A stretch of 64,000 nt of DNA from Amphiura filiformis (taxonomy: Eukaryota; Echinodermata; Ophiuroidea; Amphilepidida; Amphiuridae), in the NCBI RefSeq assembly GCF_039555335.1, contig NC_092629.1:7301432-7365431 (forward strand), in the 5' to 3' direction. Positions 4,080 to 61,202 of the stretch are shown here, in pieces (position 1 is the first letter of the stretch; each line of letters begins with the position of its first letter). Position numbers and translations under genes: made by a program. Below the pieces are notes generated by a model, which searched no databases, was not told the DNA's origin, and saw only the letters and a list, made by a program, of their open reading frames with translations.

Positions 4080-4687
4080 AAAGTATTGTCATGGTAATTA
4101 GCATTATTAGTCATTTTAGCTTATTACCTACATAAATTGTTGGTAAAACAATCAGATACAAAGAATATGTAACTTGACAGTATGTCTGATTCGCTTCAAA
4201 TAAAAGACATGTTGATCATTGTATTGTGCCCTTCTCTAGTGTTTTAAACATGCTCAGAACATCTAGTTTTCAGAAAATGCCTCATGACCAACCTTATTAA
4301 TACAAAATCGTATCATTTCCATGTTTTCTACATAAATCGTCATCAAAAATACATATAAAGTTGAACATAATCTTGTTCTTTCAGTTATTTCTTCACACTG
4401 ACGGGAGAAACCACCAGTTATAATTATTTGTACAATATTTACATGGTCAAACAAGAAAAAATTTGGTATATCACAATGTTTTTCAAGATACCCAATTGGG
4501 TAAAATGTAGGGTAACGAAAACAATGGGTACAAAAGCCCGAATATACAGTGCTGTAGTTATAATACATACATGAAAGGCGGAAAAGAACCCTGTTCTACG
4601 GGTCAGACCGATCCAGATTGTGTTCTTGCAAATCATAATTTATTTTAGCCATATTTTTTGGCCAAAATGGATTGATTTTGACTGAAT

Positions 4688-4964
4688 GGGCTATTCCATT
4701 TAAAATCCACACTACCGCTGTTGAAGATTTTGGAAATATATTCCACTGGGGGAGTATGTTTTTCAAATGTAATTGGTCAGAGTTAATCATTTTGAAACCC
4801 ATACACCCCGTATAATGGTTTTACCTATATCTTCCACAAATGGAGTGAGTAGTTCAAATGGAAGTTACCCAATTGTCTATTATATTCAAAACTTATACTC
4901 CCTCTGTGGAAGACTTTAAGCTAAATCTTCCACAGGGGTAGTGTGGATTTTAAATGGAATAGCC
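4688..4964. mobile_element. CTATTCCA-type MITE copy
   Basis: Inverted ends GGGCTATTCCATTTAAAATC / GATTTTAAATGGAATAGCC, with internal CTTCCACA-type motifs in both orientations. This family (about 180-280 bp) recurs at least ten times in the window. Confidence 0.8.
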
Positions 4965-7074: not shown

Positions 7075-7481
7075 AGCTATTCTTGTTGAAATCCATCACG
7101 CCCCTAAAGATGACATGACCTTTTATCTTCCCAAAGTGAATTTCAAATGAGATTACCACAGTGAGTGACTCCACTTGAGATCTACATCCCCTGTGAGGGA
7201 AAATAAGGCTAAGTCTCCCATAGGGAGTGTGTGGACTACAACTGGAATAGCCCATTGCTATTTGTCTACTTAACCTGATTTGTAAACTATAAATGTACAG
7301 CTCTACATTCCAGTTGAAACCCATACACCCCCATGGAAGATGTAACCTTCCACACAGGCAGTGTATATTTCAAATGGAGTTACCCATTCAGCTAACCCCA
7401 TTTGAAATTCACATTCCCTTTGTGAGATATTAATATCATGTATTCCATACGGAGTGTATGGATTTCAACTAGACTACCCCA
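7075..7481. mobile_element. Two adjacent CTATTCCA-type MITE copies
   Basis: 7,075-7,251 and 7,306-7,481 both have CTATTCCAGTTGAAATCC-type starts and CAACTGGAATAGCC-type ends, in tandem with a 55-bp gap. Confidence 0.75.
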
Positions 7482-7803
7482 TTCTACCACTACCTGGGGA
7501 ATTTCTAGGCCAAGGGTAGTGTATTTTTGAAACAATTCATTTGTACAAGTACCTTGTCTCTACAACTAGAATGTATAAAGGAAGTAGGCAAGTAGCCATT
7601 ATGATTTGATACAAAATAAGTAGTATCCTGCCCGTCCCCCATCTGGAAAATCCCAGCTACACCACTGGGGGAGTCCCATTAATAAAAAACCAGAAAACAT
7701 TACATTACATTTTTTACAAATAGTTTTTTAATACCAGTTGCTCTTGAGTAACAAAAAAATATAAATAAACATATGAAGATTTTTGTACATTTTTCTTCTC
7801 CCC

Positions 7804-8067: not shown

Positions 8068-8130
8068 CTGCCTGTGGGATTTGAGCTTCAGATAGTGAGT
8101 CCGATGCCCTAATCACTGAGCTACACAGAC
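8068..8130 (-). other. tRNA-derived SINE head (minus)
   Basis: On the minus strand: GTCTGTGTAGCTCAGTGATT (A box), GGGCATCGGACTCACTATCT, and a decayed B box GCTCAAATCCC. Acceptor ends CTGTG/CACAG pair. Looks like a tRNA-derived relic. Confidence 0.5.
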
Positions 8131-9538: not shown

Positions 9539-10808
9539 AGGTAGCCTGGGTCTGAACAGTAACCTCAAATGGTGCATTGTCTAGGCTATAACCCCGAACT
9601 GGACATAAATAATGTAATAAGAGGAATATACAAAGATTGGGAGTCAATAAAAAAAAGGTTAACCCCCTGAGCACTACCTGCCGATCTAACATTGCCACCG
9701 ATTGGTCAATTACATGATATCTTCACTTGAATCACCAATCAAAATGGAGCTTTGAAAATAATTCACCCCAATTTTTTTGTGTGGTGAAATTATTCTAACA
9801 ATGTTGCCGATTGGTCCAATTGATAATGAAAACTCCTTTTTGTCTAATCAGCAGTTAGTTCTCATTACCATGACAAAAGGATGTACCCGGTAATAATTCT
9901 GTGCGTCGTTGTTGGTACAGGTGATTATACAACTGGTAGCTAGGTATGCAGCCCAAATATTCTTGGTCTCTAGCTATAATTGGATTGAAAGAAAGTTATC
10001 TTGGTACTCTTGCAGGGCTAACAGTTCCTTGTTTGCTGCCAGAATCCATTTAAATTCGCAATCAAGAAAATGACAAGAATCTTTTGATTCTCCTCCAATT
10101 ACATAATATCAACAAGAATCTACTTGGATTCTCGCAAATCTACCCAGGAGGATCTGTGTGAGAATCGGTTCCCGCCAAATATCTAGCCCTGACTTGGCCA
10201 ATGAATGCCCCAAAGCACCATTAACCCTGTGCCACAAATAAGTTATTGTGCGTCTAGTGCAAGGTGCGTGTATGAAATTGTACGCAACTATTTGACCTTT
10301 TGCATGTACACCAGGGTTTCTCACAAGTCAAACGGCTGTATTTTGTATGTATATCTTGCTCCAGGCACGCATTCTTGATCACTGTACGACGTACGTACCG
10401 TTACGGCTGCAATTATAATGACGATTTTATATCCAATCAATAAAGCAATCAGTTCAACTGCACACCCCACCATATTTGTTATCTTGCTAAATGAAGGCAA
10501 GGGCTCTCTTTGAAGCTGAGCAATTTTTCTTAGTGAATCACCTCGATGCTTAGGCTTTTTTTTTCTGTTGGTCCAAACGAGTTTGTTCAGCTTATAATTG
10601 GCCAAAAAATATAAAGATTCATATCATCCATGAATTGATACAGAATGGTGTGCATACAGCACTTACCCTAGATGCTCAGTAACAAAAACCAAATAATTTT
10701 CGCCAATTATAAGCTGAACTTTAAACCTATGGAAAACCTGTTGCAGCTCTTTACCTCACTTCAAAAGAAATTCAACTTAAAGCTTTCATATCAACTAAGT
10801 GGAGCTAT
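9539..10808. other. No clear feature; weak inverted pieces
   Basis: Contains GATTGGTC repeats in both orientations near 9,690-9,820 and AAGAATC repeats near 10,070-10,130, probably old MITE pieces. No gene. Confidence 0.4.
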
Positions 10809-10989
10809 TGGGCTATTCCACTTGAAATCCACACCCTCCCTGCAGGACTTGAGCTTAATCTCCCACACAAGGAGATGTACTTCAAATTTAGTTACTTGAA
10901 TGGGTGACTCCATTTGAAGTCTACATCCCCTGTGTGGACGATTAAGGTAATGTCTTCCACAGGGTGTAAGGATTTCACCTGGAATAGCA
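10809..10989. mobile_element. CTATTCCA-type MITE copy
   Basis: GGGCTATTCCACTTGAAATCC at the left, CACCTGGAATAGCACA at the right, internal TGTGTGGACGATTAAGG motif as in the other copies. Confidence 0.8.
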
Positions 10990-11337
10990 CATTTGACATA
11001 CATGTCTACACTAGGAAGCAGAACTTCTTTTACATAGAGTGCACAACTGTCATCACCCTTTATACAAACTAGGAGGGGCTTAATTACTGTTACCGACTAT
11101 CCGGCCTGAGCAGCCAATCAGTGGCACTATTAAGTGCTGGACACTTTTGTACATTCTGTAAAACAAATAGTTCTTCCTAGTTAGGTGGATATTTTAAGCC
11201 TTATCATACTCTCAACTACACTCTGTCCAATACGATGCACAGCAAACAAAATTCATCCTTTTTGGCATATAGCAGCTACAATTGTGCAAATGAAGGCATT
11301 CCAGGTACACATTGCCCTGCTGATAACGTACATTGTA

Positions 11338-11731: not shown

Positions 11732-11758
11732 AGGAGAGTGATGAACTTAAACAGCATT

Positions 11759-11952
11759 GGGCTATTCCAGTTAAAATCCAGACACCCCCTATGGAAGACA
11801 TCATCACATGACCTTTTTCTTCCACACAGGGCATGAAAGATTTCAAATGGAATCACCCATTCAGATAACTCCTTTTGAAATTCACACTCCCTGTGTAGAT
11901 GATTTAAGGTCATGTCTTCCATAGAGGGTGTATGGATTTAATCTGGAAAACC
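11759..11952. mobile_element. CTATTCCA-type MITE copy
   Basis: GGGCTATTCCAGTTAAAATCC left end; right end TGGATTTAATCTGGAAAACCC. It lies about 340 bp beyond the XPO1 stop, so it may fall in the 3'UTR. Confidence 0.8.
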
Positions 11953-12287
11953 CATTGAGATGTTTCCAAGCCAAAGCTTGTACTAATGTGCTTTCGAACC
12001 ACTGTATGCACCCTTGCTCAAGTTACACGAGCAGCCCTTTTCACCCATGTCTGAAGAGAGAGATAAATGCATCCATGTTGTCGAAAGACAACTCAAGTTC
12101 TATACAATGTTGAATACCTCCATACTTCAAGCAGGCATGCCCTGTTCTCAAATCCACTGATTGTCCCGAAATTGGGACGAATTGAACGCCCTCTCGCTTG
12201 CAATCGCCTCAAAACTTGTAGCAATAATTCAGATCTGATACAGATCTGTTAATGACAGTAAATTGTTTCTTCAGTGGAGGAAGGAGA

Positions 12288-14870: not shown

Positions 14871-15702
14871 GGGGTGAGTGTGGAGATAAGATTTTATAAT
14901 TATGTGCAATATAATTCTGAATATTATATGTTTTTCTTATGTTTATTTCTTGTAATATGTATTTTAATAACTTTTATGTGTAATAATAGTAAATAATTTT
15001 TGATGTTTTAATATTGTAAAAAGTGACGCAATTTGGCTATTTGCCACGATGTTATTTTCAATAAATATGAAATGTTAAATGTTAAAATGGTATCAGCGTT
15101 AGAAATTTTGTTGTCCGTTGCCGGGACAACTAAAAAGTCGCCGGACAACCAAAAATACTGATTCGATATTTAAATCTACCCACGAGTCCCATTTGTAGGC
15201 CCACGGAGAACCAAAAACTTAACCAGAAATTGTACTCTGGTTGTCCGTGGGACAACCATTTATTTTTCCTAAATTCGAACACTGCTTATAATGTGTACCA
15301 AAGAAGATATCACCACAATGCATCATGCTTTTGCAAAACGCACTAAAACTGGTTCCTGATGCATGCAAATTCCCAGATAACATATACGCAAAGGAGGGCT
15401 TTATGACAGCAATATCACTGGGGCTCTTAGGTTTAATCAGAGCCAATCATAACCCCACTTCTGTGTTTACCCTGCATGCAGGTTGTACAACCTGGTGAAA
15501 AGTGGAAATTTTCGAGCTACATTAATTTTTACGCTTTTTAATATTTCAAGCAGCTGTACTGCAAAAATGAGTGTATATATTCGATTTTTCCAAGCAAGGA
15601 GTTTTAAAAGCAAGCGAAACTGTTCAAAACTGGCAGCTTGCAAAAAAATTTATCGCACTAAAATTCCACTTTTACAGTACTGCATTTTGACTTGGGAATG
15701 GG

Positions 15703-16288
15703 CTAATCCAGTTGAAATCCATACACCCTCTCCAAAAGACACAATCTTAATCTCCCACACAAGGGGTATTGATTTCAAATGGAGTCACCCATTCAGGTAA
15801 ACCCATTTGAAATTCACACTCCCTATGTGGAAGATTAAGGTTGTGTCTTCCATAAGGGGGTGTATGCAAGAGTGAAAATAAGATCTTTTCTACCAGCAGG
15901 ACTCAGTTTGGGAAAAATAAGTCCTGGTTTACCTAAATTTAGTCTAGAGCTCACTTTGATTTTGGTAACAGAATTTAAACCAAATAGTGTAATATCCAAT
16001 GGCCCAATCTAATAGTCTACTCTCAACAATAATAGCTCAATTTCTGACATCACATGGTAGAGAAACCCCATTCTGGTTCCCCATTTATTGGGGATTTTAA
16101 TATGTATGGACTATGGACTGTATGGTTATGGAGCCTTATGGAGGCTACGGTTCAGTACAAAAAATGTAGCCTGGTGTGGTCATTTTTAAGGTCGATGGGC
16201 TACAGTAGGCAACTAATGGGCCTGAAACAAGGCCTGTAGCATGTTTATTTTCACCCTTGGGTGTATGGATTTCATCTGGAATAGCCCA
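15703..16288. mobile_element. CTATTCCA-type MITE interrupted by another MITE
   Basis: Begins GGGCTAATCCAGTTGAAATC at 15,703 and ends GGATTTCATCTGGAATAGCC at 16,288, the same terminal sequences as the other copies of this family in the window. It is split at 15,866/16,268 by a second element. Confidence 0.8.
15867..16259. mobile_element. hAT-like MITE, 8-bp target duplication
   Basis: 393 bp with ends CAAGAGTGAAAATAA and CAAGGGTGAAAATAA in inverted orientation, flanked by the exact direct repeat GGTGTATG (15,859-15,866 and 16,260-16,267). Eight-base duplication and CAAGGGTG-type ends fit hAT. The target is the older MITE around it. Confidence 0.85.
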
Positions 16289-20483: not shown

Positions 20484-20538
20484 GTCCATCACAAAGGGAC
20501 AATTTTTACTTGTGGATCACACTATTGCAATACGGTTT

Positions 20539-20718
20539 GGGCTATTCCAGTTGAAATCCATACATCCCCTATGGAAGACAAAACCTTAATCTCCCACGAG
20601 GGCGCAGATTTCAAATAGAGACACCCATTCAGGTAACCCCATTTGAAATACACACTCACTGGGTGTGAGATACAGGTCATGTTTTCCATAGGGGAATGTA
20701 TTTCAACTGGAACAGCCC
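20539..20718. mobile_element. CTATTCCA-type MITE copy in intron 14
   Basis: GGGCTATTCCAGTTGAAATCC left end and TTTCAACTGGAACAGCCC right end, 180 bp; the right end lies about 25 bp from the exon 14 donor. Confidence 0.8.
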
Positions 20719-20742
20719 ATTATAACTGAAGGTTTGTCTTAC

Positions 20743-23418: not shown

Positions 23419-23557
23419 CCAGAGTCTCCCTCATATTCTTATACATGTTGATAGAATCTGTGTCCTTCATAAACTCTCTAACCACTTCGCCTTGATCGTT
23501 TTCAACGACGAGCACCTCCTCCGGTTTCGCCATCCTAGAAATCATGATTCTCCTCAC
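23419..23557 (-). CDS. XPO1: XPO1 exon 10, residues 417-463 (HEAT9 acidic loop)
   Basis: 139 nt. Encodes [20 protein letters not shown] and then [20 protein letters not shown]. In known CRM1 structures this region is the HEAT9 loop that contacts RanGTP and closes on the export-signal groove. Ends one base into the next codon at donor GTAAGT. Confidence 0.96.
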
Positions 23558-23599
23558 CTGTATAAGTCGTAGGTTTAATATTAGCATTAGTTAGTGGAA

Positions 23600-23945
23600 G
23601 CCGCTATTGGCAGGGGAGGAAAACAAATGGACGGAACAGCTTGTCTGTCGCCACACTCTGCTTGCATCACTCGACCTTGGAACCCCCTGTGCTATGAATA
23701 TGAATCTTTGTTGACTGTTATTAGCAGGGGACACAAATGGACGGAACAGCTTTTCTGTCGCCACACACCGCTTGCCTCGCTCGACCTTGGAACCCCCTGT
23801 GCTATGAATTTAAATCTTAAGCTGGCTGTTATTGGCAGGGGACACAAATGGACGGAACAGCTCATCTGTCACCACACACCGCTTGCCTCACTCGACCTTG
23901 AAACCCCCTGTGCTATGAATTTAAATCTAAGCTGGCTGTTAATAA
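23600..23945 (+). repeat. Three-copy tandem repeat (~112 bp) in intron 9
   Basis: Units begin near 23,605, 23,719 and 23,829 with GGCAGGGGACACAAATGGAC and end CCCCCTGTGCTATGAAT. The open frame through them is a by-product of the period. It starts about 45 bp from the exon 10 acceptor. Confidence 0.85.
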
Positions 23946-24980
23946 GAGAATAAATTATATCGTGATTAAATTATGATGTGGAAACCAAATTGGTTAAAAT
24001 ACCATCCCAACTACAACCATGGCCAAAATGTGTTGGGACACTTATGGAAAACGTACACTATAGTATGACCTTATTTCCGTTATTATTAACGTGATAAAGT
24101 GGAGGTTTCTTTGGTGTCAAGCCTAAACACTTTCCTAACACCCCAACCCACCCCCTACCCCACCAATCAATGTTGGGTGCCACAAGGCTCGTGTGACCAA
24201 AAAAGTTGAATTCAACATTGATCGGGGGAGTGGGGGGCTTATTTACATTACCCTATCAAACCGTCCCAACACTTATGGCCAGCATTGTCTCTAAGGTACA
24301 AAACATCAAATTTTAAAATGTGTGTTTTGGCCCATATCTCCTCAACCATAGCTTGGATTTTCCTCAAATTTTACATGAAAACGGAGAAACTATTTATCTT
24401 TTCACTTATATAAAAATTATTGCATTTTCCTCATGTGATTTAGGGATACGGTCACGTTTTATACGCAATATCATGTATTTTACAGTGCGTTCTGAACATT
24501 ATTAGCCTATGCCAACTACGTATTTTATGTAAAATGACGTTTTATTTTGAAAGAGTAGTGATTTAATCGCCAGAAATACATGATATTTGTTGACAGGAAT
24601 TGATTGAAGTCTTTTAAAAGAGTGATTTTGGGAAAAAAATACTTAAAATTTAAAAAAAAGCTAATTTTTAGACAAAAAAAACCCCAAACCTTAATCATTT
24701 TCATCGTTTGCATCAAAAATGTATGTGGTATTTGCAACGAGTATATCGTGTAAATATAATCATAGTCGGCAGGAGTAGGCTTAAATTACATTTTATGACT
24801 GAAATTTATTAAAGCGCTTTCAAAGAAACTTATAGTAAGTATAGAAAGTAAAATATAGGTAGACATACAGAAAAAAAGAAGGACGGACATTGGCAAAAAT
24901 TAATAGAACGACGAATATAATATGATGAAGGATATTGTAAAATAATAAAAAAAGAAAAGAAAAAGAAATCTAAATAAATT

Positions 24981-25046
24981 CAGGGCTCGAACCCGTGTCC
25001 ACTCGCCTGTGGCAGATGCCGTATCCATTCGCCAACAGAGCTGTGT
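24981..25046 (-). other. tRNA-like sequence (Arg-type), left palindrome arm
   Basis: Read on the minus strand it begins CAGCTCTG, has an A box TGGCGAATGGATACGGC and a B box GGTTCGAGCC at tRNA spacing. The start resembles arginine tRNA (CUCUGUGGCGCAAUGGAUA). The acceptor arm does not close properly and the anticodon arm is weak, so it is a pol III promoter-like relic rather than a tRNA gene. Confidence 0.55.
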
Positions 25047-25550
25047 AACTTCAACAGGCTTAAACTATAATATAATGCTATTCAACATGCATGTATATAA
25101 ATATCGCTCTACACACGATATACAGTCCAAAAAATACATTTTTCGGCATTTGTTTCATTAACTGAATATTTATCATACAGCAGGTGTTGGCTGACATTGT
25201 GCTTCACATTTAGTTCAGTTTTTGTCCGGGATAAATGACTACGGGACAAAATCGGACGGTATACACGTCGTTAAAGAGTAAAGAATTTTAATATAATATT
25301 ACTTTCTTTTTCTTTTTTCATTCGTGTATATCGTTCGTTTTTGTCCCAAATTCATTTTACCCTGGCCCAAAACTGAAATATATGTGGAGCACAAATGTCA
25401 GCCAACACCTGCTATATGATAAATATTCAGTTAATGAAACAAATGCCGTAAAAGTGTGATTTGTTTGACTGTTTATCGTCCGTAGAGCGATATTTATATA
25501 CATGCATCTTGAATAGCATTATATTACAGTTTAAGCCTGTTAAAGTAATA

Positions 25551-25615
25551 CAGCTCTGTGGTCCAATGGATACGGCATCTGCCACAGGCACAGTGGACAC
25601 GGGTTCGAGCCCCTG
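25551..25615 (+). other. tRNA-like sequence (Arg-type), right palindrome arm
   Basis: Mirror of the minus-strand copy in the left arm: CAGCTCTGTGG, A box GGTCCAATGGATACGGC, B box GGTTCGAGCC. Together the two copies point outward from the palindrome centre. Confidence 0.55.
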
Positions 25616-27102
25616 AATTTATTTATATATCTTTTTCTTTTCTTTTTTGTTATTATTTTACAATATCCTTCATCATATTATATTCGTCGTTCTAATAAAA
25701 TAAAAAATAACATAGCACATAAAAAAAAAGTAATTATCATAATATTACACATAATTTCTAAATTAGAATTTCATCATCTTCAGAAGATAGCAAACTTTTA
25801 TTCCTTTATTTGTTTTTTGATCACGAGATGTTGTGATAACTTTTATTTTCTTCTATAGCTGTAATGTGACATTTTAATTGGTGGAAACAATAATTTTCCA
25901 TTTTAAAACCCAAGTTTTTGACAGTTAAAGTGACGAATAGTGAACTTAGACAGGGCCAAAATATCGTTTAAAGACAATTTAAGTGACCAGTCCCTAAATT
26001 TCAAATGTAGCCATCCAAAATTTTTTTGATAAAGCCACATGATAAGATCTCTAACTGCTCCAAATTTGGTGTCAATATCATATTTACTTTTTGAGTTATA
26101 AGCAAAAAACTGAAATTAGATGATTTTTTTCAACTTTTCAAATACAACCATGGCCAAAATGTGTTGGGACACTTATGGAAAACGTACACTATAGTATGAC
26201 CTTATTTCCGTTATTATTAACGTGATAAAGTGGAGGTTTCTTTGGTGTCAAGCCTAAACACTTTCCTAACACTAACCCTCCCCTTCAATCAATGTTGGGT
26301 GCCACAAGGCTCGTGTGACCAAAAAAAGTCGAATTCAACATTGATCGGGGAGTGGGGGCTTATTTACATTACCCTATCAAACCGTCCCAACACTTATGGC
26401 CAGCATTGTCTCTAAGGTACAAAAATCAAATTTTAAAATGTGTGTTTTGGCCCATATCTCCTCAACCATAGCTTGGATTTTCCTCAAATTTTACATGAAA
26501 ACGGAGAAACTATTTATCTTTTCACTTAAATAAAAATTATTGCATTTTCCTCATGTGATTTAGGGATACGGTCACGTTTTATACGCAATATCATGTATTT
26601 TACAGTGCGTTCTGAACATTATTATAGCCTATGCCAACTACGTATCTTGCTTAAAATGACGTTTTATTTTGAAAGAGTAGTGATTTAATCGCCAGAAATA
26701 CATGATATTTGTTGACAGGAATTGATTGAAGTCTTTTAAAAGAGTGATTTTGGGAAAAAAAATACTTAAAATTTAAAAAAAAGCTAATTTTTAGACAAAA
26801 AAAAACCAAACCTTAATCATTTTCATCGTTTGCATCAAAAATGTATGTGGTATTTGCAACGAGTATATCGTGTAAATATAATCATAGTCGGCAGGAGTAG
26901 GCTTAAATTACATTTTATGACTGAAATTTATTAAAGCGCTTTCAAAGAAACTTATAGTAAGTATAGAAAGTAAAATATAGGTAGACATACAGAAAAAAAG
27001 AAGGACGGACATTGGCAAAAATTAATAGAACGACGAATATAATATGATGAAGGATATTGTAAAATAATAAAAAAAGAAAAAAAAAAGAAATCTAAATAAA
27101 TT

Positions 27103-27170
27103 CAGGGCTCGAACCCGTGTCCACTCGCCTGTGGCAGATGCGTATCCATTCATGCTTAACAGAGCTTGTG
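27103..27170 (-). other. tRNA-like sequence, second array unit, left arm
   Basis: Same tRNA-like block as at 24,981-25,046; B box intact (GGTTCGAGCC), A-box side damaged by a few inserted bases. Confidence 0.45.
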
Positions 27171-27678
27171 TAACTTCAACAGGCTTAAACTATAATATAA
27201 TGCTATTCAACATGCATGTATATAAATATACGCTCTACACACGATATACAGTCCAAAAAAATACATTTTTACGGCATTTGTTTCATTAACTGAATATTTA
27301 TCATACAGCAGGTGTTGGCTGACATTGTGCTCCACATTTAGTTCAGTTTTTGTCCGGGATAAATGACTACGGACAAAATCGGACGGTATACACGCCTCTT
27401 TAAAGAGTAAAGAATTTTAATATAATATTACTTTCTTTTTCTTTTTACAAGCGTGTATATCGTTCGCTTTTGTCCCAAAATCATTTTACCCGCCCAAAAC
27501 TGAAATATATGTGGAGCACCAATGTCAGCCAACACCTGCTATATGATAAATATTCAGTTAATGAAACAAATGCCGTAAAAGTGTGATTTGTTTGACTGTT
27601 TATCGTCCGTAGAGCGTATATTTATATACATGCATCTTGAATAGCATTATATTACAGTTTAAGCCTGTTAAAGTAATA

Positions 27679-27743
27679 CAGCTCTGTGGTCCAATGGATA
27701 CGGCATCTGCCACAGGCACAGTGGACACGGGTTCGAGCCCCTG
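27679..27743 (+). other. tRNA-like sequence, second array unit, right arm
   Basis: Identical in the readable core to 25,551-25,615, with both A and B boxes. Confidence 0.5.
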
Positions 27744-28685
27744 AATTTATTTATATATCTTTTCTTTTCTTTTTGTTATTATTTTACAATATCCTTCATC
27801 ATATTATATTCGCTGCTCTATTAATATAAAAAAAATAACATAGCACATAAAAAAAGTAATTATCATAATATTACACATAATTTCTAAATTAGAATTTCAT
27901 CATCTTCAGAAGATAGCAAACTTTTATTCCTTTATTTGTTTTTTGATCACGAGATGTTGTGATAACTTTTATTTTCTTCTATAGCTGTAATGTGACATTT
28001 TAATTGGTGGAAACAATAATTTTCCATTTTAAAACCCAAGTTTTTGACAGTTAAAGTGACGAATAGTGAACTTAGACAGGGCCAAAATATCGTTTAAAGA
28101 CAATTTAAGTGACCAGTCCCTAAATTTCAAATGTAGCCATCCAAAATTTTTTGATAAAGCCACATGATAAGATCTCTAACTGCTCCAAATTTGGTATCAA
28201 TATCATATTTACTTTTTGAAAAAAAAGAAAAAAACTGAAATTAGATGATTTTTTTCAACTTTTCAAATACAACCATGGCCAAAATGTGTTGGGACACTTA
28301 TGGAAAACGTACACTATAGTATGACCTTATTTCCGTTATTATTAACGTGATAAAGTGGAGGTTTCTTTGGTGTCAAGCCTAAACACTTTCCTAACACCCC
28401 AACCCTCCCCTTCCCCACCAATCAATGTTGGGTGCCACAAGGCTCGTGTGACCAAAAAGTCGAATTCAACATTGATCGGGGAGTGGGGGGCTTATTTACA
28501 TTACCCTATCAAACCGTCCCAACACTTATGGCCAGCATTGTAGGTGATTATGACCAACATTTTTTACCCTTGAATAATAAACAATTGCGTGGAATTAGTT
28601 CTGTACGTATGGGGTTTAAACCTCTCACGTCAGTTGGTATGGAATGACCCCACCCCCCAATGGAATGACCCCTCCTGTCTCTTAC

Positions 28686-28886
28686 CTTTGAGAGAATCAA
28701 CAAGTACATCTGTCTCCTGGGCGGGATGTCCGGCGTTGTACCGCCTAATAGGAGAGGTGACGACGGTGTGGACGAAAACGGACTCTCTCGGTACAGCTCC
28801 GATGCTAGCGTGTTCCAATATTCCAGGCAGATCTTGAAGATCTCGGTTTCCTCAACTTCGGAGATTAAGATCAGGTACTGGTGTGC
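28686..28886 (-). CDS. XPO1: XPO1 exon 9, residues 350-416
   Basis: 201 nt, phase 0. AHQYLILISEVEETEIFKIC through ELYRESPFSS to PPRRQMYLLILSK. It is one codon longer than human in the variable SSTPSSPLLLGG loop. Donor AAG|GTAAGA. Confidence 0.96.
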
Positions 28887-29493: not shown

Positions 29494-29758
29494 TGCTATT
29501 CCATTTAAAATCCATTCTCCTTCTGTGGAAGATTTAGCTTAAGTCTTCCACAGCAGATGCAAAAGTTTCAAATAGAATAGACAATTGGGTAACTTCCTTT
29601 TGAAATACTCCATTTGTGGAAGATATAGGTAAAGGGGGAGTATAGGTTTCAAAATGATTAACTCTGACCAATTACATTTGAAAAACATACTCACCCTGTG
29701 GAAGATATTTCCAAAAAATCTTCCACAGGGGTAATGTGGATTTGAAATGGAATAGCCC
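29494..29758. mobile_element. CTATTCCA-type MITE copy in intron 8
   Basis: GTGCTATTCCATTTAAAATC left end, GATTTGAAATGGAATAGCCC right end, 265 bp; closest relative in the window is the 4,688 copy. Confidence 0.8.
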
Positions 29759-29787
29759 AATACACCCCAGGTTCTAAATTTTGTTAC

Positions 29788-29946: not shown

Positions 29947-31254
29947 CTGCAATAGCAATTGATAAAATTAATTGTCAATGATTGATAAAATTATTTGTCA
30001 TCAGCTAGCTAATGAAAGCTATCACTTTTGTATTTTATTTATCTACTGTTATTTGCAATGGTACAAAACATCGCTGTTCATAGCCTTGGAAATCAAGATC
30101 AGATCACTTCCGCTACGGTCGCTACCACCACAACCCTTGCTGCGAGTCATGTCTGTACTTAAGAGCTCTTGAACATAATTTTTTAGAAGTGGCTCTATAC
30201 CTCAAAAAATAGATTTTTCTGATATTTTGTGCAATGATGCATGTTAGGGTGTTGACTACTTGTGTCACTAAAAAAAATTCAAAAATCGGCTCGTTGCCAT
30301 GGAAACGGCCAAAACCCAGATTAAGTCATTTTGGGCCAAATTGGCAGTGAAATTAGTTAAAAAACATGTTATTTCAAGTGTTACGCTGCAACTAAGCCAT
30401 ATAATGCTGGTACATTACATTAAGTTCTTGTGAAAGGACATCTATTCATCTGATGATCAGCATATTTAGAGGTCAATAAGTTATTCTTAAGGGTACGTGC
30501 AGAGCCCATCTGTCAGGTGTATACACTTTTTCATAAAATGTCATTTTAGCACCTAAAATATCATCATGAAAATCAACAACCCGGTGTTGCCAGGAATTTG
30601 TCCATTCTAGTGTGGGTAGTATAAGCTAGGTACTTTACATTTTAGTAAAAATCAGCTTGGGCAAATGTTACTTCTAAATACAGTGTTGCCAGAAAAACCG
30701 GTATTTTTGCAAATTGACATTTTGTCAAATTACGCCTTTTTGTCACAATTTTGTGCATTTTGACAAATATTTTCCTTCAAGGTGAATCCAAACAACACAT
30801 TTTCGTCTTTGTAAATATCTAAATACTGAAAATTCAATTAGTGTTGCCAGAGTTCTTGATAAAACACCCACTATTAGTATTTTACTGATAGTATGATTTG
30901 TTGTTGATGGTTTGATTGGGAAATGCTTATTTATAATTTTCATACATCGAATGTACATAGTATAGATTGTTATATGAATGTTTAAACACCTGAGCACAAA
31001 GTAAGTGTTGCCAGAATTCTTGATAAAACACCCAAAATCATAATGCCATGATCCAGTCCTCTCACGCTAAAGTTGACAATGTCAAAATTTGGTTTACTAT
31101 CATCAATAGCTTGTCCTAAAAAGCGTATTCAAATTTTAAAAACCCCACGGTTCTAGTATTATCTAGTACAGAGTTATAGTCAGGGTAATTATGGGTATTA
31201 ATTTTGTTCTTTGTTTTCTATTGAATTTTGAACTGGTCACTCAAACCTTACTGG

Positions 31255-32489
31255 ACTGGATCAATAATAATCAAAAATATTGATATCAATTTCAGCAATA
31301 ATGAAAAAATATATAAATATCGTTATCAATAATAAACAAAAATATTATCATCAATATCAAAAATATTAACATCAATAATAATCAAAATTATTAACATCAA
31401 TATCAATAATTATCAAAAATATTAATATTAATATCAATATAATCAAAAATATTAATATCAAAAATAATCAAAAATATAAATATCAATTTCAATAATAATC
31501 AAGAATATTAATATCAATATCAATAATAATCAAAAATATTAATATCAATATCAATAATAATCAAAACTATTAATATCGATATCAATATCAATAATAATCA
31601 AAAATATTTATATGTCATATGAATAATAATCAAAACTATTAATATGAATAATAATCAAAAATATATATCAATATCAATAATAATCAAAAATATTAATATC
31701 AAAAATATTAATATCAATAATAATCAAAAATATTGATATCAATTTCAGTAATAATTAAAAAATATATAAATATTAATATCAATATCAAATATAATCAAAA
31801 ATGATATCAATTTCAGTAATAATTAAAAAAATATATATATATCGTTTTTCAATAATAAACAAAAACATTGACATCAATAATATCAATAATAATCAAAAAT
31901 ATTAACATCAATATCAATAATTATCAAAAATATTAATATTAATATCAAAAATAATCAAAAATATAAATATCAATTTAAATAATAATCAAGAATATTAATA
32001 TCAATATCAATAATAATCAAAATATTAATATCTATATCAATAATAATGAGAAATATTAATATCAAAATCAATAATGATCAAATATATTAACATCAATATC
32101 AATAAAAAATCAAAAATATTAATATCAATATCAATAATAAGCAAAATATTAATATCAATAATAATCAAAAATAGTAATACTAATATCAATTTTAAAATAT
32201 TAAGATTTTGATATTGTTGATATTGATATTAATATTTTTGATTATTATTGATATTAATATTTTGCTTATTATTGATATTAATATTAATATTTTGCTTATT
32301 ATTGATATTGATACTAATATATTTGTCATTATTGATTTTGATATTAATATTTTTCATTATTATTGATGTATTAATATTTTGATTATTATTGATATTGATA
32401 GTTTTGTTTATTAGTGTTATTGATATTGGTATTAATATTTTTAAATATTATTGATATATTGATGTGAATATTTTTGATTATTATTGATA
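31255..32489. repeat. AT-rich degenerate array, itself inverted
   Basis: About 1.2 kb of AATATCAATAATAATCAAAA-type repeats, period near 30 with variation. From about 32,205 the same repeat runs in the opposite orientation, so the array can fold on itself. Related shorter stretches follow at 33,075-33,280. Confidence 0.85.
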
Positions 32490-32493
32490 TTAA

Positions 32494-33070
32494 CCCTAGA
32501 ACTACGAAGTACCACCCCAAGATTTCTTATCCGTCATAAAAAAAATGCGCGCATTTACGCCTCGACCTAAACTAATCATAGATCCATCCTTTGCGCTCAT
32601 TTTAGTGTAAAAATTTTTACCAGCACCTTACCTGGGGGTAGGACCGGCTGTCAAAGATAACCATAGAGGGGGTGTTGGTGAGGGCCACCAATGGTTTCTA
32701 CAGTAAAATAAATTATTTTCATTTCGCTCATGTAAAATTATTATAAGCTATTGACTTTTTACTTGTTAGTTTGAGGAGAAAATTCGGTCAAATTGCATTT
32801 TTTGTAGAATTTTAGCCTAAAATCAATTTTGCCACTACTTTTGTAAATAGCTGAAATTTTCCAAATTTGCATGGGCGCCCTCACATTATGACGTCTGCGA
32901 CATTATATGAGAGGAATGTTTGTACTTATTGGTATCACTGGGGTAGAGGAGACCCATAGCTATACATTGATTCCAAATATAACGGTATATGAGCGTTTAT
33001 AATTGAAAATTAGGGGTTGCAACCCCCTTACGTAGTCCGTGTTACAAAATATGGCTCAGTAGTTCTAGGG
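32494..33070. mobile_element. piggyBac-like MITE with TTAA duplication
   Basis: 577 bp bounded by TTAA on both sides (32,490-32,493 and 33,071-33,074). Ends are perfect inverted repeats CCCTAGAACTAC. TTAA plus CCCTAGAA is the signature of piggyBac ends. No transposase ORF, so non-autonomous. It sits inside the AT array and interrupts it. Confidence 0.85.
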
Positions 33071-34348
33071 TTAATGTTAATATTTTTGATGATTGTTGAT
33101 AATGATGTTAATATATTTGATATTATTAATATTATTGATGATAGTAAACCAAATTAATGTTAATACATTTGATTATTATTTACATCGATTAAAATAGTTT
33201 TGATTAGTATTGATAATGATGTTAATAGACCTACATTGATATTATTATTAATATTGATGATAGTAAAAAAATTTGATGTTGGATCATGGCACATATAAAT
33301 ATATATATATATATATATATATGATTTTGGGTGTTTTATCAAGAACTCTGGCAGCACTTACTTTGTTCTCAGGTGTTTAAACATTCATATAACAATCTAT
33401 ACTATGTACATTCGATGTATGAAAATTAGAAATAAGCATTTCCTAACCAAACCATCAACACAAAATCACTAAAATGCTAATATTGGGTGTTTTATCAAGA
33501 ATTCTGGCAACACTAATTTTGAATTTTCAGTGTTTAGATATTTACAAAGACGAAAAAGTGTTGTTTGGATTCACCTTGAAGGAAAACATTTGTCAAAATG
33601 CAAAAAATTGTGACAAAAAGGCGTAATTTGACAAAATGTCAATTTGCAAAAATACCGGTTTTTCTGGCAACACTGTATTTAGAAGTAACATTTGCCCAAG
33701 CTGATTTTTATTAAAATGTAAAGTACCTAGCTTATACTACCCACACTAGAATGGACAAATTCCTGGGAACACCGGGTTGTTGATTTTCATGATGATATTT
33801 TAGGTGCTAAAATAACATTTTATGAAAAAGTGAAAATACACCTGTCAGATGGGCTCTGCACGTACCCTTAAGAATAACTTATTGACCTCTAAATATGCTG
33901 ATCATCAGATGAATAGATGTCCTTTCACAAGAACTTAATGCGATGTACCAGCAATATATGGCTTAGATACAGCGAGCACTTGAAATAACATGTTTTTTCA
34001 CTAATTTCACTGCCAATTTGGCCCAAAATGACAAAATCTGGGTTTTGGCCGTTTCCATGGCAACGAGCCGATTTTTGAATTTTTTTTAGTCACACAAGTA
34101 GTCAACACCCTAACATGCATCATTGCACAAAATATCAGAAAAATCTATTTTTTGAGGTATAGAGCCACTTCTAAAAAATTATGTTCAAGAGCTCTTAAGA
34201 CTGTGAATTACATCCAAACAACTACAGATGTTGTCAATTTAATTTTAGACTTTAGCCCTAGCAAATACCCAAGCAAGTTGCCATCGCTGGAAATTGGAAA
34301 AAAAAAACCAACAACAAAAAAGTCTCTAATATATTAAACTCAACCTAC

Positions 34349-41822: not shown

Positions 41823-44447
41823 GGTAACTCGTGCTACACTTTATGGCGTCCTTTTACATACTTTGTGCTCCAGCTTTTAAATTGATTTGATTGGAATCTG
41901 TATTTTTTGTATTTTAATACCCAACATTCAAGGCTAGATCCTCATAGTATTGCTAATTCAGGATATCAACTTTTGTATGTATGGGACAGCTGTAAAATCG
42001 GTAACTTCGTACTACGAGCAGAGGACATGCTTAAAAATCACTCATTTTTATTTTGATGGTGTGCTAAAACAAAAACACTAAAGCCTTATTGATTATATGA
42101 TAAGTAATTGCTATAATAAGGTTTGTTTTGGTATACCTTAAAAAGTTGTGCCCCTCATAGTTTTACATTGACTGGCAAAAAACATGGTAACTTCGTACTA
42201 CGGTAACTCGTGCTACAGTTTGTCCGCCATATATAAAATGGTATTGTTCATCTAAATGTCAATTTTTTTTTTTAACAATTTCCTCAACAACTGGTGTAAT
42301 GATCAAATAACTCAATCTATGTACAAATAACCCCCCAAATAACCCATCTATGTACAAATAACACTATTCAGTGTATGCACCAGCATACAATGTACCACAC
42401 ACATTACATACAAACATCCCAGCCTTACATACGCCTTGCTTGATCCTGTTTGGATATTTTATTCTAGGGTTTAAATTTAAACAGTTAAATTGAACAGTCA
42501 ACAATTGATAAAACTTTTACTTCCATGTTATTTGACTCTAAATTCCCTCACAAAACTTGTAATGTTCATGGTTATTTGCTCTGTAAGTTTTTTAAAAATT
42601 GCTTTCTGAGTTAAAGAATGTTTGGTCATCTTTTGGTTGAGACCATTTCCTGCTTGGTGCAAATACTCTAGTTTGCCCGATTTCAATCACTTCACTAAGC
42701 TGGAAAATGAGCCTCATTACACTCAACAACAAACCAATTTCCAATACAAATCTCAGAACCACACACATCTCAGTATCACCAATGTCACTGTGGCTGTTAA
42801 TCTCAGGATTTCCAGTATCTATTTTGTTTGTTTGTTTTATTTCTTCTTTTGCCTCGGTTACTCATGCAGTGGATGTTTTAAGGTATCCTCTGTTCTTCCA
42901 TGAGGCCCATATTAATTGATTGGTTCTTAGGCTAGATCCTAGGGGTGGAGGGCTAAAATTTTGGTTGCATCATTTTGACCAGGTATTGATAGTGGGATAT
43001 ATGCTAAATAGCATGTTTTTTTAGAGAGACTGTACAATGTAAAGTCTTTGAGCTTTTAAAAAAAAAAGGACTTTATTGGTGTGTGCAAAAATTTGGTATA
43101 AATAAATTTACACTATTTTGGCACATGATCGGGGTGGAAACTGGCTCCTTGAATCTTTTCTTTATCTTTGCCTTCCATATTTTTACTTTAATTTTCCTGC
43201 AACAGGAGGTCACTTTTCTCTTTAATTTTTGGCCCCCACACATGTGTGGTTGCCTGGTTGTTTGTTTGTTTCTATCTTTGTTTGGCTGTCCGGGCGGAAG
43301 CAAATTCATTAATCCACTGTACAGCTCCAACACAATAACTACAAACTTGGTACCGGTATGGTGATAGAATAATGGTGGCTTGATGTGCTGTGTAGTTTTG
43401 TGTTATGTTATTTGCATATTTATGAATATTAATGAGCTTATTTACAAATTTTGCCAACATTTTCATTAATCCACTTTGCAGCATTATAAACACAATAACC
43501 AATCAACTTCATACTTGGTTTGGTTGGATATGGTGGCCTGATGTGCTGTATTATTTTGTGTCATGTTATTTGCATATTTATGAATATTAATGAGCTTTTA
43601 TTTACAAACCTTTGTTATTTACACACTTTTGTGTGTGGGGGTGTGTGTGTGTGTATGGGCACCTTAATTACGAACTGCATAATTCTAGTTTGTCATGGGG
43701 CAGGCTGCCCCTCCCCCCACACTGGCTACACTGCTGCTAGAAAGCTGTTACCAATATCATGGTCACATATAAATATGCATATTCATGTAGTTGGGTGATC
43801 CTCTATTGCTGCCAAGTGGTAGATTTTGCATTACCTTTGCTGGTACAGGGGAAGTGGGCTATGGTAACTCAGTACTACATCGGTAACTCGTGCTACTGGT
43901 AACTCGTGCTACAGTTTTAAATGGGTCATTATTATGTGATGGATAGTGTTTTGTATATTAATTTGTTATTTTTACTCAAGGCACTATTAGTAGAAGGAAA
44001 ATAATAAGTGGCATCAATTAAATTGCCAACATTTTGAAAATATATAAAAAAATGCATCTTTCGGTAACTCGTGTTACGCCATATTTAGTGCTATGAAAAC
44101 GCACTGAAAGAAAAAAATAGTTACCAATACCATGGTCACATATAAATGCATATTCATGTAGTTGGGAGATCCTCTATTGCTGCCAAGTGGTAGATTTTGC
44201 ATTACCTTTGCTGGTACAGGGGGAAGTGGGCTATGGTAACTCGTGCTACATCGGTAACTCGTGCTACTGGTAACTCATGCTACAGTTTTTAATGGGTCAT
44301 TATTATGTGATGGATAGTGTTTTGTATATTAATTTCTTATTTTTACTCAAGGCACTACTAGTAGAAGGAAAATAATAAGTGGCATCAATTACATTGCCAA
44401 CATTTTGAAAATACATAAAAAATGCATCTTTTCGGTAACTCGTACTA
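41823..44447 (+). repeat. Twelve dispersed GGTAACTCGTGCTAC motifs
   Basis: Found at about 41,823; 42,000; 42,186; 42,202; 43,863; 43,882; 43,898; 44,063; 44,235; 44,253; 44,269; 44,433. Variants are GGTAACTTCGTACTAC and GGTAACTCGTGTTAC. All keep GGTAACT...TAC and one orientation, though the bases between them differ. Role unknown. Confidence 0.85.
43100..43620 (-). repeat. ~155-bp tandem repeats, related to 13.6-14.2 kb
   Basis: About three units containing TTTGCATATTTATGAATATT, AATGAGCTTATTTACAAA and CACAATAACCAATCAACTTC. Read on the minus strand it matches the intron 19 array at 13.6 kb. Confidence 0.7.
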
Positions 44448-44480
44448 CGCCATATTTAGTGCTATGAAAAGCATAATGAA
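43747..44480 (+). repeat. 373-bp tandem duplication
   Basis: GTTACCAATATCATGGTCAC at 43,747 recurs at 44,120, and the two units stay alike to the GTGCTATGAAAA block; each unit carries four of the GGTAACTCGTGCTAC motifs. Confidence 0.85.
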
Positions 44481-45450
44481 AGAAAAAAAATTAGTGGGGA
44501 TTATTTAAAATGTGTTGGATGTTTCTTGAAGACCATATTTCAGAGATATAAAATGTATAAAATTTAAAAGAAAAGTGCCCATGTTTAATAAAATAGGCCC
44601 ACTTGGAAAATATCTAAGTTGAACAGGAGTTTTTCACTTAAAATACACTCTCCAAAGAAACTTTAAAAAAACAACCAAAATGTTAGAAAAATGCCGAAAA
44701 AAGTTTATAACTTGAACCTTACATCTGTTTGGAATAATATAAAAGTTAAAAGAAATATATATTGGCAATTTCATTTTTTTGAGTCATGTCCACTTTTGCT
44801 TGGAATTGCCCAAATGAACATAAAATAAACAAAAACAATACATCTCATGCCTTCTTTGGCTTTATTCCCACAATTATCGCTTCATGAATATGCAAATTTA
44901 TGACAAAATCAGGATTTTCCTAAAATGGGGTAAAATTGCCAATTTTGTGAATCTTTAAAGGCTGTATCTTCAAGCGGATTGTCCGATTGAGTTGATTCAA
45001 ACGGTTTTTTAAATCAGTTTGCAGAAGGAACAATCCTGACAGAAAAAGTAATTCCAGGGGTGGGTTTGAAATTTTCATGTGACCACCCTAGTACTACACC
45101 CCTTGATAAATTTGTAACTATTATTGCATTTTTTTCAAAAACTAATAAAACACTGGTAACAAAAGTTATGTATATAAGGGGCAAGGAATCCAGTTAATAC
45201 ACTGGAATTTCAGTGACTCAAGACAAGTAGTTATTGATTTATTGATCAAATATTGGTTTTCTCTCATTTTTGACTGTAACTCCACAACTGTTGTCTGTGC
45301 TGAAATAAAATTTTCAGTGCAGTACCGTAGTTGTAGTCCTTGCCCCTATAATATACATATCTTACTTGGCACCAGTGCCCTATAGTTTTGAGAAAAATGC
45401 AAAAATAGGCACACAATTGGCCAGGGGTGTAGACTGTAGTACCACCTTAA

Positions 45451-52074: not shown

Positions 52075-52925
52075 GCGTCAAATTTGGCTTCAAATGTTGA
52101 CTGCACCCACCAAGTGTCATGCCCATCTGACAGTTTTTACTAATTTGACCTCAGATGACCTCGAAATGACCTTCCAAAAATGTGGCTTAAAATGTTGACT
52201 GTACCCACCAAGTTTCATGCCCATACGACTGTTTTTACTAATTTGACCTCAAATGACCCCTGGTGACCTCAAAATGACCTTCCAAAAATTTGGCTTTAAA
52301 TGTTGACTGAATGACTGTACCCACCAAGTTTCATGCCCATACGACAGTTTTTACTAATTTGACCTCAAATGACCCCTGGTGACCTCGAAATGACCTTCCA
52401 AAAATTTGGCTTAAAATGTTGACTGTACCCACCAAGTTTCATGCCCATACGATTGTTTTTACTAATTTGACCCCAAATGACCCCTGGTGACCTCGAAATG
52501 ACCTTCCAAAAATTTGGCTTTAAATGTTGACTGTACCCACCAAGTTTCATGCCCATCCAACAGTTTTTACTGATATGACCTCAGATGACCCCTGGTGACC
52601 TCGAAATGACCTTCCAAAAATTTGGCTTTCAATGTTGACTGTACCCACCAATTTTCATGCCCATCCAACACATTTTACTAATTTGACCTCAGATGACCCC
52701 TGGTGACCTCGAAATGACCTTCCAAAAATTTGGCTTTAAATGTTGACTGTACCCACCAAGTTTCATGCCCATACGACAGTTTTTACTAATTTGACCTCAG
52801 ATGACCTCGAAATGACCTTCCAAAAATGTGGCTTTAAATGTTGAATGGACCCACCAAGTTTCATGGACATACGACAGTTTTTACTAATTTGACCTCAGAT
52901 GACCCCTAGATGACCTCAGTGACCT
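52075..52925 (+). repeat. Eight-copy minisatellite, ~108-bp unit
   Basis: CCACCAAGTTTCATGCCCAT recurs at about 52,109; 52,208; 52,322; 52,431; 52,539; 52,648; 52,754; 52,852. Spacings are near 108, or near 98 where CCCCTGGTGA is absent. Other constant blocks are TTTTTACTAATTTGACCTCA and GAAATGACCTTCCAAAAAT. Confidence 0.9.
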
Positions 52926-56359: not shown

Positions 56360-56700
56360 GATATTAGGTGGGTAAGCTGATTGAAAATAAAATCTCATCC
56401 CCCACTTTACCTCCTCAAAATGCTGATTTTGGTATCAGATGAAAGTTCATATTTTTCTCATAAACACTTTATAATTGAAATTTGGCGTTCAATCGATATA
56501 TTTCCGAAGAAATCATCAAAAAACTGTCGAATTAGTCTCAAATATGGTACCCGGTATACCACATTTGACACTAATTAGTCAGTTTTTGGATGATATCTTC
56601 GGAAATAGGCCTACACTGAGTTGGAACTATTTCAATATGTTTATGAGAAAAATAGGGCCTTTCACTTGAAATCAATATATTACATGATCATGATGATTAT
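56360..56700. mobile_element. Fold-back element, TTAAAGG family (copy 3, partial)
   Basis: GGTGGGTAAGCTGATTGAAA, CCCCCACTTTACCTCCTCAA and the AATATGGTACCCGGTATACC centre identify the family; it runs opposite to copies 1 and 2 and lacks one terminal part. Confidence 0.65.
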
Positions 56701-57700
56701 CATTAATAAAAACAGAGTATTAATGATCCTTGTCTACATCCTCTTTTTATGAAATTTTTTAGTATCCACGAAAAAAGCGTAAGTTCCTAAAATATCAGTT
56801 GATTCTGATTTTGCGTATTATGTGACTACGTATCACACTGCCGCGACAATGTGTCAATTGGCGTTCTGGTGTAAATAATTCAGATTGCACGATGTTTTTG
56901 GTAAATGAATTAATCTGCAAGAATTTTTTTGTTCATAAACATTATGTAGCCAGAGGTTTCCAGTGATATAAAAATCTCAACTTTTTTGGAGAAAAGTGGG
57001 GGGATCATCATAATGCTGATCACGAAATGCCCTTTTAAGAAATTAAAAATATGCGTTTTCATTGATGCTCAAGTACATTTAACCGAAATTTGGCATTATA
57101 TCATTTTAAGGACTTGATGAGACAAAAAATATGTTGAATGATTCATTAATTCTGTGTTACTTTTTAATATTTGAGAGACTATAATGTGAAGTTTGCCATT
57201 TTTTGCCATTTTTGCCGGTCTAACCGAGCAGAAATGGCAAAAACAAGTTTCTCAGTGGTAAATTAGGCAAAAACCGAACCCTGGTCACTAATTGGGTACA
57301 AACAAAATGAAAAAAAAGGGGTCATTAAATAAAGGTCATTGGGTATAAAATTTAAAAAAAAGGGGTCATCGGATAGAATATTTTGAAGAAAATGGAGCAA
57401 AATTCTATTTCTTATTCCAATGATTTTTCAAATTTAAAAGACAAATTTCCTGAATAAGAGAATTTGAAAGTTTCCAGCATTTTTTATGACTGAGAAAAAA
57501 AAGGGGTCATTGAGATCATGGAAGTACTACCATGTTGAGATTGAGTAGCTGCACCTAAAAAAAAAAAGGGGGGGGGGGTCACCCGGGGGTCATCGGTTAT
57601 ATTCGACTTCAAAAAGAGGGCCTATTGACAGGCACATAATTATTGGCACTTCCCAAAGTTGAGTGCACCTGGGGAAACCTGCAGGCACCGTTAAAATTGC
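56701..57700. other. No gene; low-complexity GGGGTCAT repeats
   Basis: AAAAGGGGTCAT-type segments recur at 57,310-57,600 with a G run near 57,570. The 56,950-57,030 part resembles 62,290-62,370. No coding frame. Confidence 0.45.
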
Positions 57701-59504: not shown

Positions 59505-59788
59505 TAATTAATATTTTGTTCTGGGTCTGATTATTCGGACTAGCATGACTAGGGGAACTCAGTCATGTTTTACAGTATGAGTGTCTGACATTCATTGTCA
59601 TGATTCTCATTGATCACATGTAATACATGCATGCTCAAGAAGTCTTGGCAAGAGTAGATGAGTGTATTTTATTAGGGGTACTACACCCCTGGCCAATTTT
59701 GTGCCTATTTTTGTGTTTTTCTCAAAAATCATAGCACATTGGTGACAAGTAAGATATGTATATTATAGGGTCAAGGACTACAACTACT

Positions 59789-60654: not shown

Positions 60655-61202
60655 GGTTTTGTAGTGTCTCTGGATCTAGACCTAAATGCCAGGATCATTC
60701 ATGGTTGACCTAAAAAAAAAAAAAATTTCAAAATATTTTGTTATTTTTTATATGAAAATTGATAATTTGTATTCATGTCATAATCTATTAATGATTTCAA
60801 AATGTATTGAATTTGAATGCATTTTGAAATCATTAATAGACTATGACATGAATACAAATGATCAATTTTCATATTAAAAATAACAAAATATCTTGATTTT
60901 TTTTTTTTTTTTTTTTTGGAATACCCGGGAGGGTATTTCCTACCGGGTAATGTAATCTCGGTAATTACCCGTTTACCCGACCCGAAAATGCCAGCCTTAA
61001 TCCTCATATTTTTGAGACAATAAGAAACTTCAGGAAGAAGTTTTTATTCATATGCATGATATTGGGACCTGTATGCCAACCGTGTACATGTACCAAACAA
61101 GGTCAGTGAAGGTATCGTTACATGAGCGCAAATCCTTGACGTTCTAACTTCAGTATCACAAGCTATCGGTTGTTCATACGAAAGTTAGAAATTTTCAAAC
61201 AA
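59789..61202. mobile_element. 1.4-kb element with ~60-bp inverted ends, 8-bp target duplication
   Basis: Begins TTGTTCGAAAATTTCTAAC and ends with its near-complement; the arms continue over CAACCGATAGCTTGTG. Flanked by CAACTACT at 59,781-59,788 and 61,203-61,210. No transposase ORF. Eight-base duplication fits hAT-like or related transposons. Confidence 0.85.
60545..60999. mobile_element. hAT-like MITE nested inside the 1.4-kb element
   Basis: Ends TAGGCCTGGCATTTTCGGGT and TAAGGCTGGCATTTTCGGGT in inverted orientation, flanked by ATCCTCAT (60,537-60,544; 61,000-61,007). The interior has a poly-A run, a poly-T run and a self-complementary TTCATGTCATA segment. Confidence 0.85.

Follow-up and report, generated by a model that had tools for sequence, protein, structure and literature searches.

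A tandem A-B-A-B-A array with palindromes and tRNA-Arg-like blocks, apparently inside an exportin-1 intron of Amphiura filiformis

What kind of element gave rise to the palindromic tandem array at positions 24014 to 28540 of a 64,000-nucleotide stretch of the ophiuroid Amphiura filiformis (RefSeq assembly GCF_039555335.1, contig NC_092629.1, positions 7,301,432 to 7,365,431 of the forward strand; hereafter, the window)? An original prediction had described two tandem units of 2.13 kb, each with an ~800-bp palindrome bearing an outward-facing tRNA-Arg-like block in both arms, and had speculated about RNA polymerase III (pol III) transcription or hairpin replication. Two points make the locus unusual: its blocks run in the order A-B-A-B-A, and each arm of the palindrome holds a tRNA-Arg-like block. 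The combination of parts is unusual, yet every part is of an already known kind. With moderate confidence, we read the array as a nonautonomous composite DNA-transposon insertion that was moved by its outermost A ends, carried foldback cargo, and grew from A-B-A to A-B-A-B-A through recombination. Taking A as a TA-flanked miniature element that bounds cargo would account for the anatomy more simply than pol III promoters do.

We first describe the layout. Repeat finding and BLAST searches against the window returned the predicted coordinates of the array and divided it into three A blocks of ~270 bp and two B blocks of ~1.86 kb, all on the plus strand: A1 (24014 to 24287), B1 (24288 to 26144), A2 (26145 to 26408, common to both units), B2 (26409 to 28269), and A3 (28270 to 28540). 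The A copies, which begin at 24014, 26145, and 28270, are mutually 94 to 98% identical (BLAST). The existence of two tandem ~2.13-kb units was borne out by a unit spacing of 2120 to 2133 bp and by the 97.2% identity of B1 and B2 (BLAST), and repeat finding placed inverted pairs within each unit. The A block had been described as a 270-bp joint with inverted ends between the two units; it is present, and its ends are inverted repeats, if imperfect ones, but it occurs in three copies and also caps both ends of the array. Units 1 and 2 differ at 29 clusters of positions (3 in A and 26 in B), 11 of which hold more than one change, and the differences in A are confined to three short stretches, one C-rich, one a run of A, and one G-rich. 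Each B block, the putative cargo, consists of a left part, the palindrome, and a right part; the outer parts of B1, compared as an inverted repeat, scored 23.5, below the mean of 24.7 for 100 shuffles.

Next, we looked at the ends of the array and of each A copy. A1 resembles a miniature inverted-repeat transposable element (MITE) with imperfect terminal inverted repeats (CAACCATGGCC.../...GGCCAGCATTG). The outermost ends of the array, including the TA, form an imperfect inverted repeat in which 23 of 28 columns are identical (anchored alignment of TACAACCATGGCCAAAATGTGTTGGGAC versus TACAATGCTGGCCATAA-GTGTTGGGAC, score 15); the maximum was 8 in 2000 random pairs of 28-base stretches from the window, the ends having been chosen after inspection. 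The terminal inverted repeats of block A and of the array thus lie at the exact ends, as in MITEs of the Tc1/mariner type, and in A2 and A3 the ends are the best inverted match within the copy. The predicted TA at the outer edges was found at the left flank of A1 (24012 to 24013) and at the right flank of A3 (28541 to 28542), a candidate target-site duplication. TA also lies directly left of A2 and A3, while TC lies directly right of A1 and A2, and A3 is the sole A copy with TA on both sides. The outer ends show a suggestive resemblance to a TA-target (Tc1/mariner-type) miniature element.

The B blocks carry the palindromes. Palindrome 1 (24899 to 25698) has arms that are ~87% identical, and palindrome 2 (27021 to 27825) has arms that are 85 to 86% identical, in line with the 85 to 87% identity found when each was compared by BLAST with its own reverse complement and with the 86 to 87% identity of the arms within one palindrome in an alignment of all four arms. 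In the same alignment, the identities of the same arm across the two units were 0.967 and 0.985. Palindrome 1 (24895 to 25704), folded as single-stranded DNA, reached −331.7 kcal/mol compared with a mean of −70.5 kcal/mol for 20 shuffles. An ~800-bp palindrome in each unit was therefore confirmed, and it has the long inverted repeats with little or no spacer that characterize foldback elements. Its edges are AT-rich and differ between units, with no clear target duplication there. Because the arms differ by 13 to 15% and the units by only about 3%, the palindrome is shown, on the evidence of divergence, to predate the tandem duplication. MicroRNA precursors were considered for the hairpin loop and rejected, Rfam having given just subthreshold matches to it.

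The array lies between two exon matches of exportin-1. We derived the gene setting by matching a human exportin-1 sequence to the window; the gaps between matches only approximate introns. Fifteen matches were obtained, all on the minus strand. Pfam CRM1 repeats were found in 2 of the 4 open reading frames tested, and one of these two also matched exportin-1 chains of solved structure. The exon match upstream of the array in the direction of the gene is at 28680 to 28877 (minus strand), and the downstream one is at 23420 to 23566 (minus strand). The two are 5113 bp apart, and the array and its TAs take up 4531 bp of this distance and leave 582 bp. Among the 12 remaining gaps between neighboring matches, sizes range from about 220 to 2650 bp, and 10 are under 800 bp. 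Judged by these matches, the array apparently sits inside an exportin-1 intron. For this genome, there is nothing unusual about a foldback element in or close to a gene, since the window holds many palindromic and terminal-inverted-repeat elements, and those outside the array belong to several families. Directly left of the array, within the same interval between exon matches, lies a tandem repeat (23623 to 23941, a 111-bp unit present 2.9 times).

From this layout we infer the following course of events. Block A would be a miniature element of ~270 bp that targets TA, has imperfect terminal inverted repeats ~28 columns long, and is mobilized in trans, most likely by a Tc1/mariner-type transposase. 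Two copies of A may have come to bracket B, a piece of DNA that already held the 800-bp foldback palindrome; a tRNA-Arg gene or the head of a tRNA-Arg-derived short interspersed element (SINE) would have been caught in that DNA before the palindrome duplication, and the tRNA-like blocks would have traveled as passengers whose cloverleaf was lost. The transposase could then have paired the outermost A ends and moved A-B-A as one into a TA of the exportin-1 intron, where unequal recombination between A copies may have produced A-B-A-B-A. Consistent with these steps, the array begins and ends precisely with an A copy, TA lies at its two outer edges, and the inner right ends are followed by TC. 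In addition, the 582-bp residue without the array resembles most neighboring gaps of exportin-1. The absence of a Pfam domain from the six frames of one unit would also suit a nonautonomous element, and the window is rich in foldback and terminal-inverted-repeat elements. By analogy with the Sleeping Beauty vector described below, right ends of A1 and A2 that lack TA would favor the use of the right end of A3.

Several observations weigh against composite movement. The mobility of the element is inferred, and a transposase hidden in the unit was rejected after a search of all six frames of A1-B1, read with stops as X, gave no Pfam domain up to an E value of 0.5. No extra copies of A or B were found by BLAST in the 64-kb window, just matches of 17 to 31 bases. 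Within A1, an internal pair of C-rich and G-rich stretches gives a better inverted match than the ends do. TA makes up 7.8% of the dinucleotides in the window, so that TA at both edges is weak evidence alone, and the finding that A3 alone has TA on both sides is compatible with the insertion of a lone A that was extended later by recombination. The likeness of the A ends to those of Tc1-like elements is presumed, and a search for parts of the A-end motif in the text of papers returned no transposon paper by title among the matches listed.

An alternative explains the facts nearly as well, and nothing in the window separates it from composite movement. Here, a lone A with its TA duplication would have stood in the intron, and a circular or satellite-derived A-B would have entered it by homologous recombination through A, either as a dimer or twice, making the array the seed of a 2.13-kb satellite rather than a transposed composite. 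This course predicts the identical pattern of outer TA/TA and inner TC and fits the position of A3 as the one copy between two TAs, but just two units are seen in the window; we regard it as possible, though on the unlikely side. Reviews describe tandem arrays that arose from miniature transposons (PMC9659126, PMC12628747). According to the cited passages, Xenopus Xstir/Xmix and miDNA4 have MITE ends that bound tandem repeats and act as a satellite seed, like the array, whereas their repeats are found within the MITE or come from its internal portions, and the unit here is a 2.13-kb one that includes the whole of A (PMC9659126, PMC12628747). Tetris of Drosophila virilis is likewise a foldback element that yields tandem arrays, but its array is listed as built from the Tetris terminal inverted repeat, and the passage on it names no tRNA part (PMC9659126).

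Two further systems bear on the composite insertion that we favor. MER6/MER6A is a Tc1/mariner MITE of 865 bp with 24-bp terminal inverted repeats, TA duplications, and a SINE-derived insert (PMC6887750). It shares with the array short terminal inverted repeats, a TA target that in the array is a candidate one, the lack of coding potential, a SINE-type passenger, and insertions within genes; in contrast, it is a single element for which the cited passages mention neither palindrome nor tandem, and its passenger is a V-SINE, compared with a tRNA-Arg-like block in both arms here (PMC6887750). A second precedent is the Sleeping Beauty "sandwich" vector, in which a cargo sits between two transposons whose inner ends are disabled and which are mobilized through the outer ones (PMC4229213). 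Two transposon copies that flank cargo and move by outer ends are also what we propose here, but the vector is engineered, with its copies head to head and the inner ends mutated, while the A copies of the array are in direct orientation (PMC4229213).

Another possibility is that the second unit is unreal and that the assembly placed a haplotype pair of A-B-A in tandem. The difference of about 3% between the units is within the heterozygosity of marine invertebrates, and 11 of the 29 difference clusters hold multiple changes. However, the element alone is doubled, with both flanks single and the junctions exactly at A. We therefore find such an artifact improbable, and the A-B-A core and the palindrome would survive it.

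We then evaluated the tRNA-Arg-like blocks. In unit 1, the left arm carries one that points leftward (24982 to 25041, minus strand) with both an A and a B box, and the right arm carries one that points rightward (25552 to 25620, plus strand), with an A box at 25559, a B box at 25602, and a T run from 25632. In unit 2, the left block (27104 to 27166, minus strand) is decayed, with the B box kept and the A box lost, and the right block (27680 to 27748, plus strand) has 61 aligned bases identical to those of its unit 1 counterpart. Compared with 20 human tRNAs, with 200 shuffles per block, the right-arm blocks scored 22.5 (shuffle maxima, 16.5 and 14.0) and ranked five Arg genes in places 1 to 5. 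The unit 1 left block scored 17.5 (shuffle maximum, 17.0), again with five Arg genes at the top, while the unit 2 left block scored 14.5, inside the shuffle range (maximum, 15.5), with a tie between Gly and Arg. Only the right-arm blocks stand out, because other 80-base stretches of the window, taken in steps of 40 bases, reached up to 19.0 against the same tRNAs. Of the predicted outward blocks, those of the two right arms are thus clear in sequence, the unit 1 left one is weaker, and little is left of the unit 2 left one.

The blocks were also scored with a model of our own, built from 12 of the 20 tRNAs (three of them Arg) in versions with and without base pairs. The two versions weight sequences differently, and a comparison of their bit scores is therefore no more than approximate. 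The right-arm blocks scored 25.7 bits without pairs (E = 6.4 × 10−7) and 22.1 with pairs (E = 1.6 × 10−4), the unit 1 left block 13.6 and 15.6 bits, and the unit 2 left block 7.3 and 7.8 bits, both of the last being partial matches. The window also holds a tRNA relic at 8069 to 8130 (minus strand), in which the acceptor, D, and anticodon parts match and the T part is shortened. Outside the array and this relic, the best match to the model scored 14.3 bits without pairs and 16.0 with pairs. From the unpaired and paired scores, pairing lifts the relic strongly (15.1 to 34.7 bits), lifts the unit 1 left block slightly, and lowers the right-arm blocks.

The covariance check that the original prediction had proposed came out negative for the two unit 1 blocks. 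The Rfam tRNA model RF00005 gave no match at E ≤ 10 on either of them, while the relic at 8069 to 8130, used as a control, was detected at 27.1 bits, just under the gathering score of 29. At the gathering threshold, Rfam returned zero tRNA matches in the window, the unit 2 blocks being covered by these general scans only, and ARAGORN called zero tRNAs in the window. Plain tRNA genes were rejected on the strength of ARAGORN for the window and of Rfam at E ≤ 10 for the two unit 1 blocks. The tRNA-like blocks also give no sign of extra conservation: in 60-column windows, the identity between arms was 0.82 to 0.88 at the blocks versus 0.86 to 0.93 in most of the remainder (0.54 to 0.79 near the center). 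The two right-arm blocks are convincing relatives of tRNA-Arg in their sequence, and the tRNA-like blocks are probably relics.

Could such blocks drive the element, with two outward tRNA-like promoters making the RNA by which a SINE-like element spreads? All blocks but the left one of unit 2 have a pair of A and B boxes, as in the head of a tRNA-derived SINE. Such pairs would be rare by chance, with 3 observed versus a total of 4 in 100 shuffled windows, the pair in unit 2 being a copy of that in unit 1 and hence not independent. tRNA-Arg came top in three of the four blocks and tied for the top in the fourth, and the 22.1 bits of the right-arm blocks in our paired model point the same way. 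However, every block has its first run of at least four T beginning with the 20th or 21st base beyond its matched B box, and pol III transcription ends at T runs. With T runs so close behind each B box, pol III would not be expected to read through the element; a transcript would be predicted to reach about 80 to 100 nucleotides and to end inside the arm, would cover little of the 2.4-kb A-B-A, and could not template the whole element. The right block of unit 1 begins some 260 bases away from the palindrome center, and some 80 bases separate its end from the palindrome edge. As judged from the sequence, the element would thus differ from a SINE, which has the tRNA head at its start and lies wholly within a single pol III transcript.

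A defining or driving role for two pol III-type promoters is not supported, given the blank result of RF00005 on the two blocks tested, the loss of one A box, and the early T runs. Together with palindrome edges that lack a clear target duplication, these findings make a SINE-like, pol III-driven element very unlikely. We hold just as little expectation of the bolder form of the idea, in which outward transcription from two divergent, functional pol III promoters of tRNA origin would open the palindrome of a mobile element, or mark it for hairpin or template-switch replication, and the element would spread as a tandem bounded by TA-target ends, a hybrid of SINE promoter and DNA-transposon mobility. 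Tandem repeats with a tRNA-related region are described for Xenopus laevis Satellite 1 and Hydromantes Hy/Pol III and are in this respect like the array; they are listed as SINE-derived, and the passage that describes them names no palindrome or terminal-inverted-repeat ends (PMC9659126).

Most improbable of all is a terminal-repeat retrotransposon in miniature (TRIM) or large retrotransposon derivative (LARD), with A as the long terminal repeat (LTR), B as the internal part, and the tandem made by LTR recombination: A-B-A-B-A is the pattern of tandem LTR elements, for which arrays with an internal repeat in common and flanking target duplications are documented (PMC11899658), but A is no LTR. 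The LTR/TRIM reading failed on its defining features: A lacks a TG start and a CA end and instead has ends CAACC/CATTG and inverted repeats of ~28 columns, the flanks of A1 and A3 share just TA with no target duplication of 4 to 6 bp, and no site resembling a tRNA primer was seen by eye after A1.

Searches for relatives elsewhere were negative. Among the matches listed, no title or abstract opening described the arrangement, which is not proof of its absence from the literature. Three patterns searched in viral contigs gave 0, 0, and 2 matches; both records matched the element over 31 bases or less, which we took as chance without a formal test. One pattern searched in genome contigs matched once, over 19 bases, in a bacterial metagenome-assembled genome, and ARAGORN found no tRNA in that 8-kb locus. 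One unit compared with plasmids and phages gave no match at E 1 × 10−5.

The remainder of the window contains further repeats. An ~4-kb element (30158 to 34199) has terminal inverted repeats of ~880 bp (95% identical), with AT-rich tandem repeats between them and ends CTTAAGAGCTCTTGAAC. A palindromic MITE-like family is represented at 2365 to 2724, 45091 to 45432, 61199 to 61452, and 59675 to 59788, the first of these copies bearing TTAAGGGGGTACTACACCCCTGGCC at both ends, and an inverted-repeat family with ends like TTAAAGGTGGGTAACCTG is represented at 941 to 1248, 56366 to 56714, and 61511 to 62043. Foldback elements at 7078 to 7486, 10806 to 10993, 11755 to 11957, 15697 to 15866, 20538 to 20721, 4687 to 4964, and 29495 to 29759 mostly end like GGGCTATTCCAGTTGAAATCC; those at 15697 to 15866 and 20538 to 20721 lie between exportin-1 exon matches. 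Two more tandem arrays were found at 43747 to 44489 (a 371-bp unit present twice) and at 52156 to 52917 (a 108-bp unit present seven times).

If the array should prove to be nested debris only, it would be a tidy example of common processes. If the composite insertion that we favor is true, the locus would be the natural equivalent, in a eukaryote, of a composite transposon, in which short TA-target elements bracket and carry other DNA, and its steps would be testable by comparing copies across the host genome. It would also be a tandem array seeded in a conserved gene, where miniature transposons, cargo capture, and the birth of a satellite would be linked at one locus.

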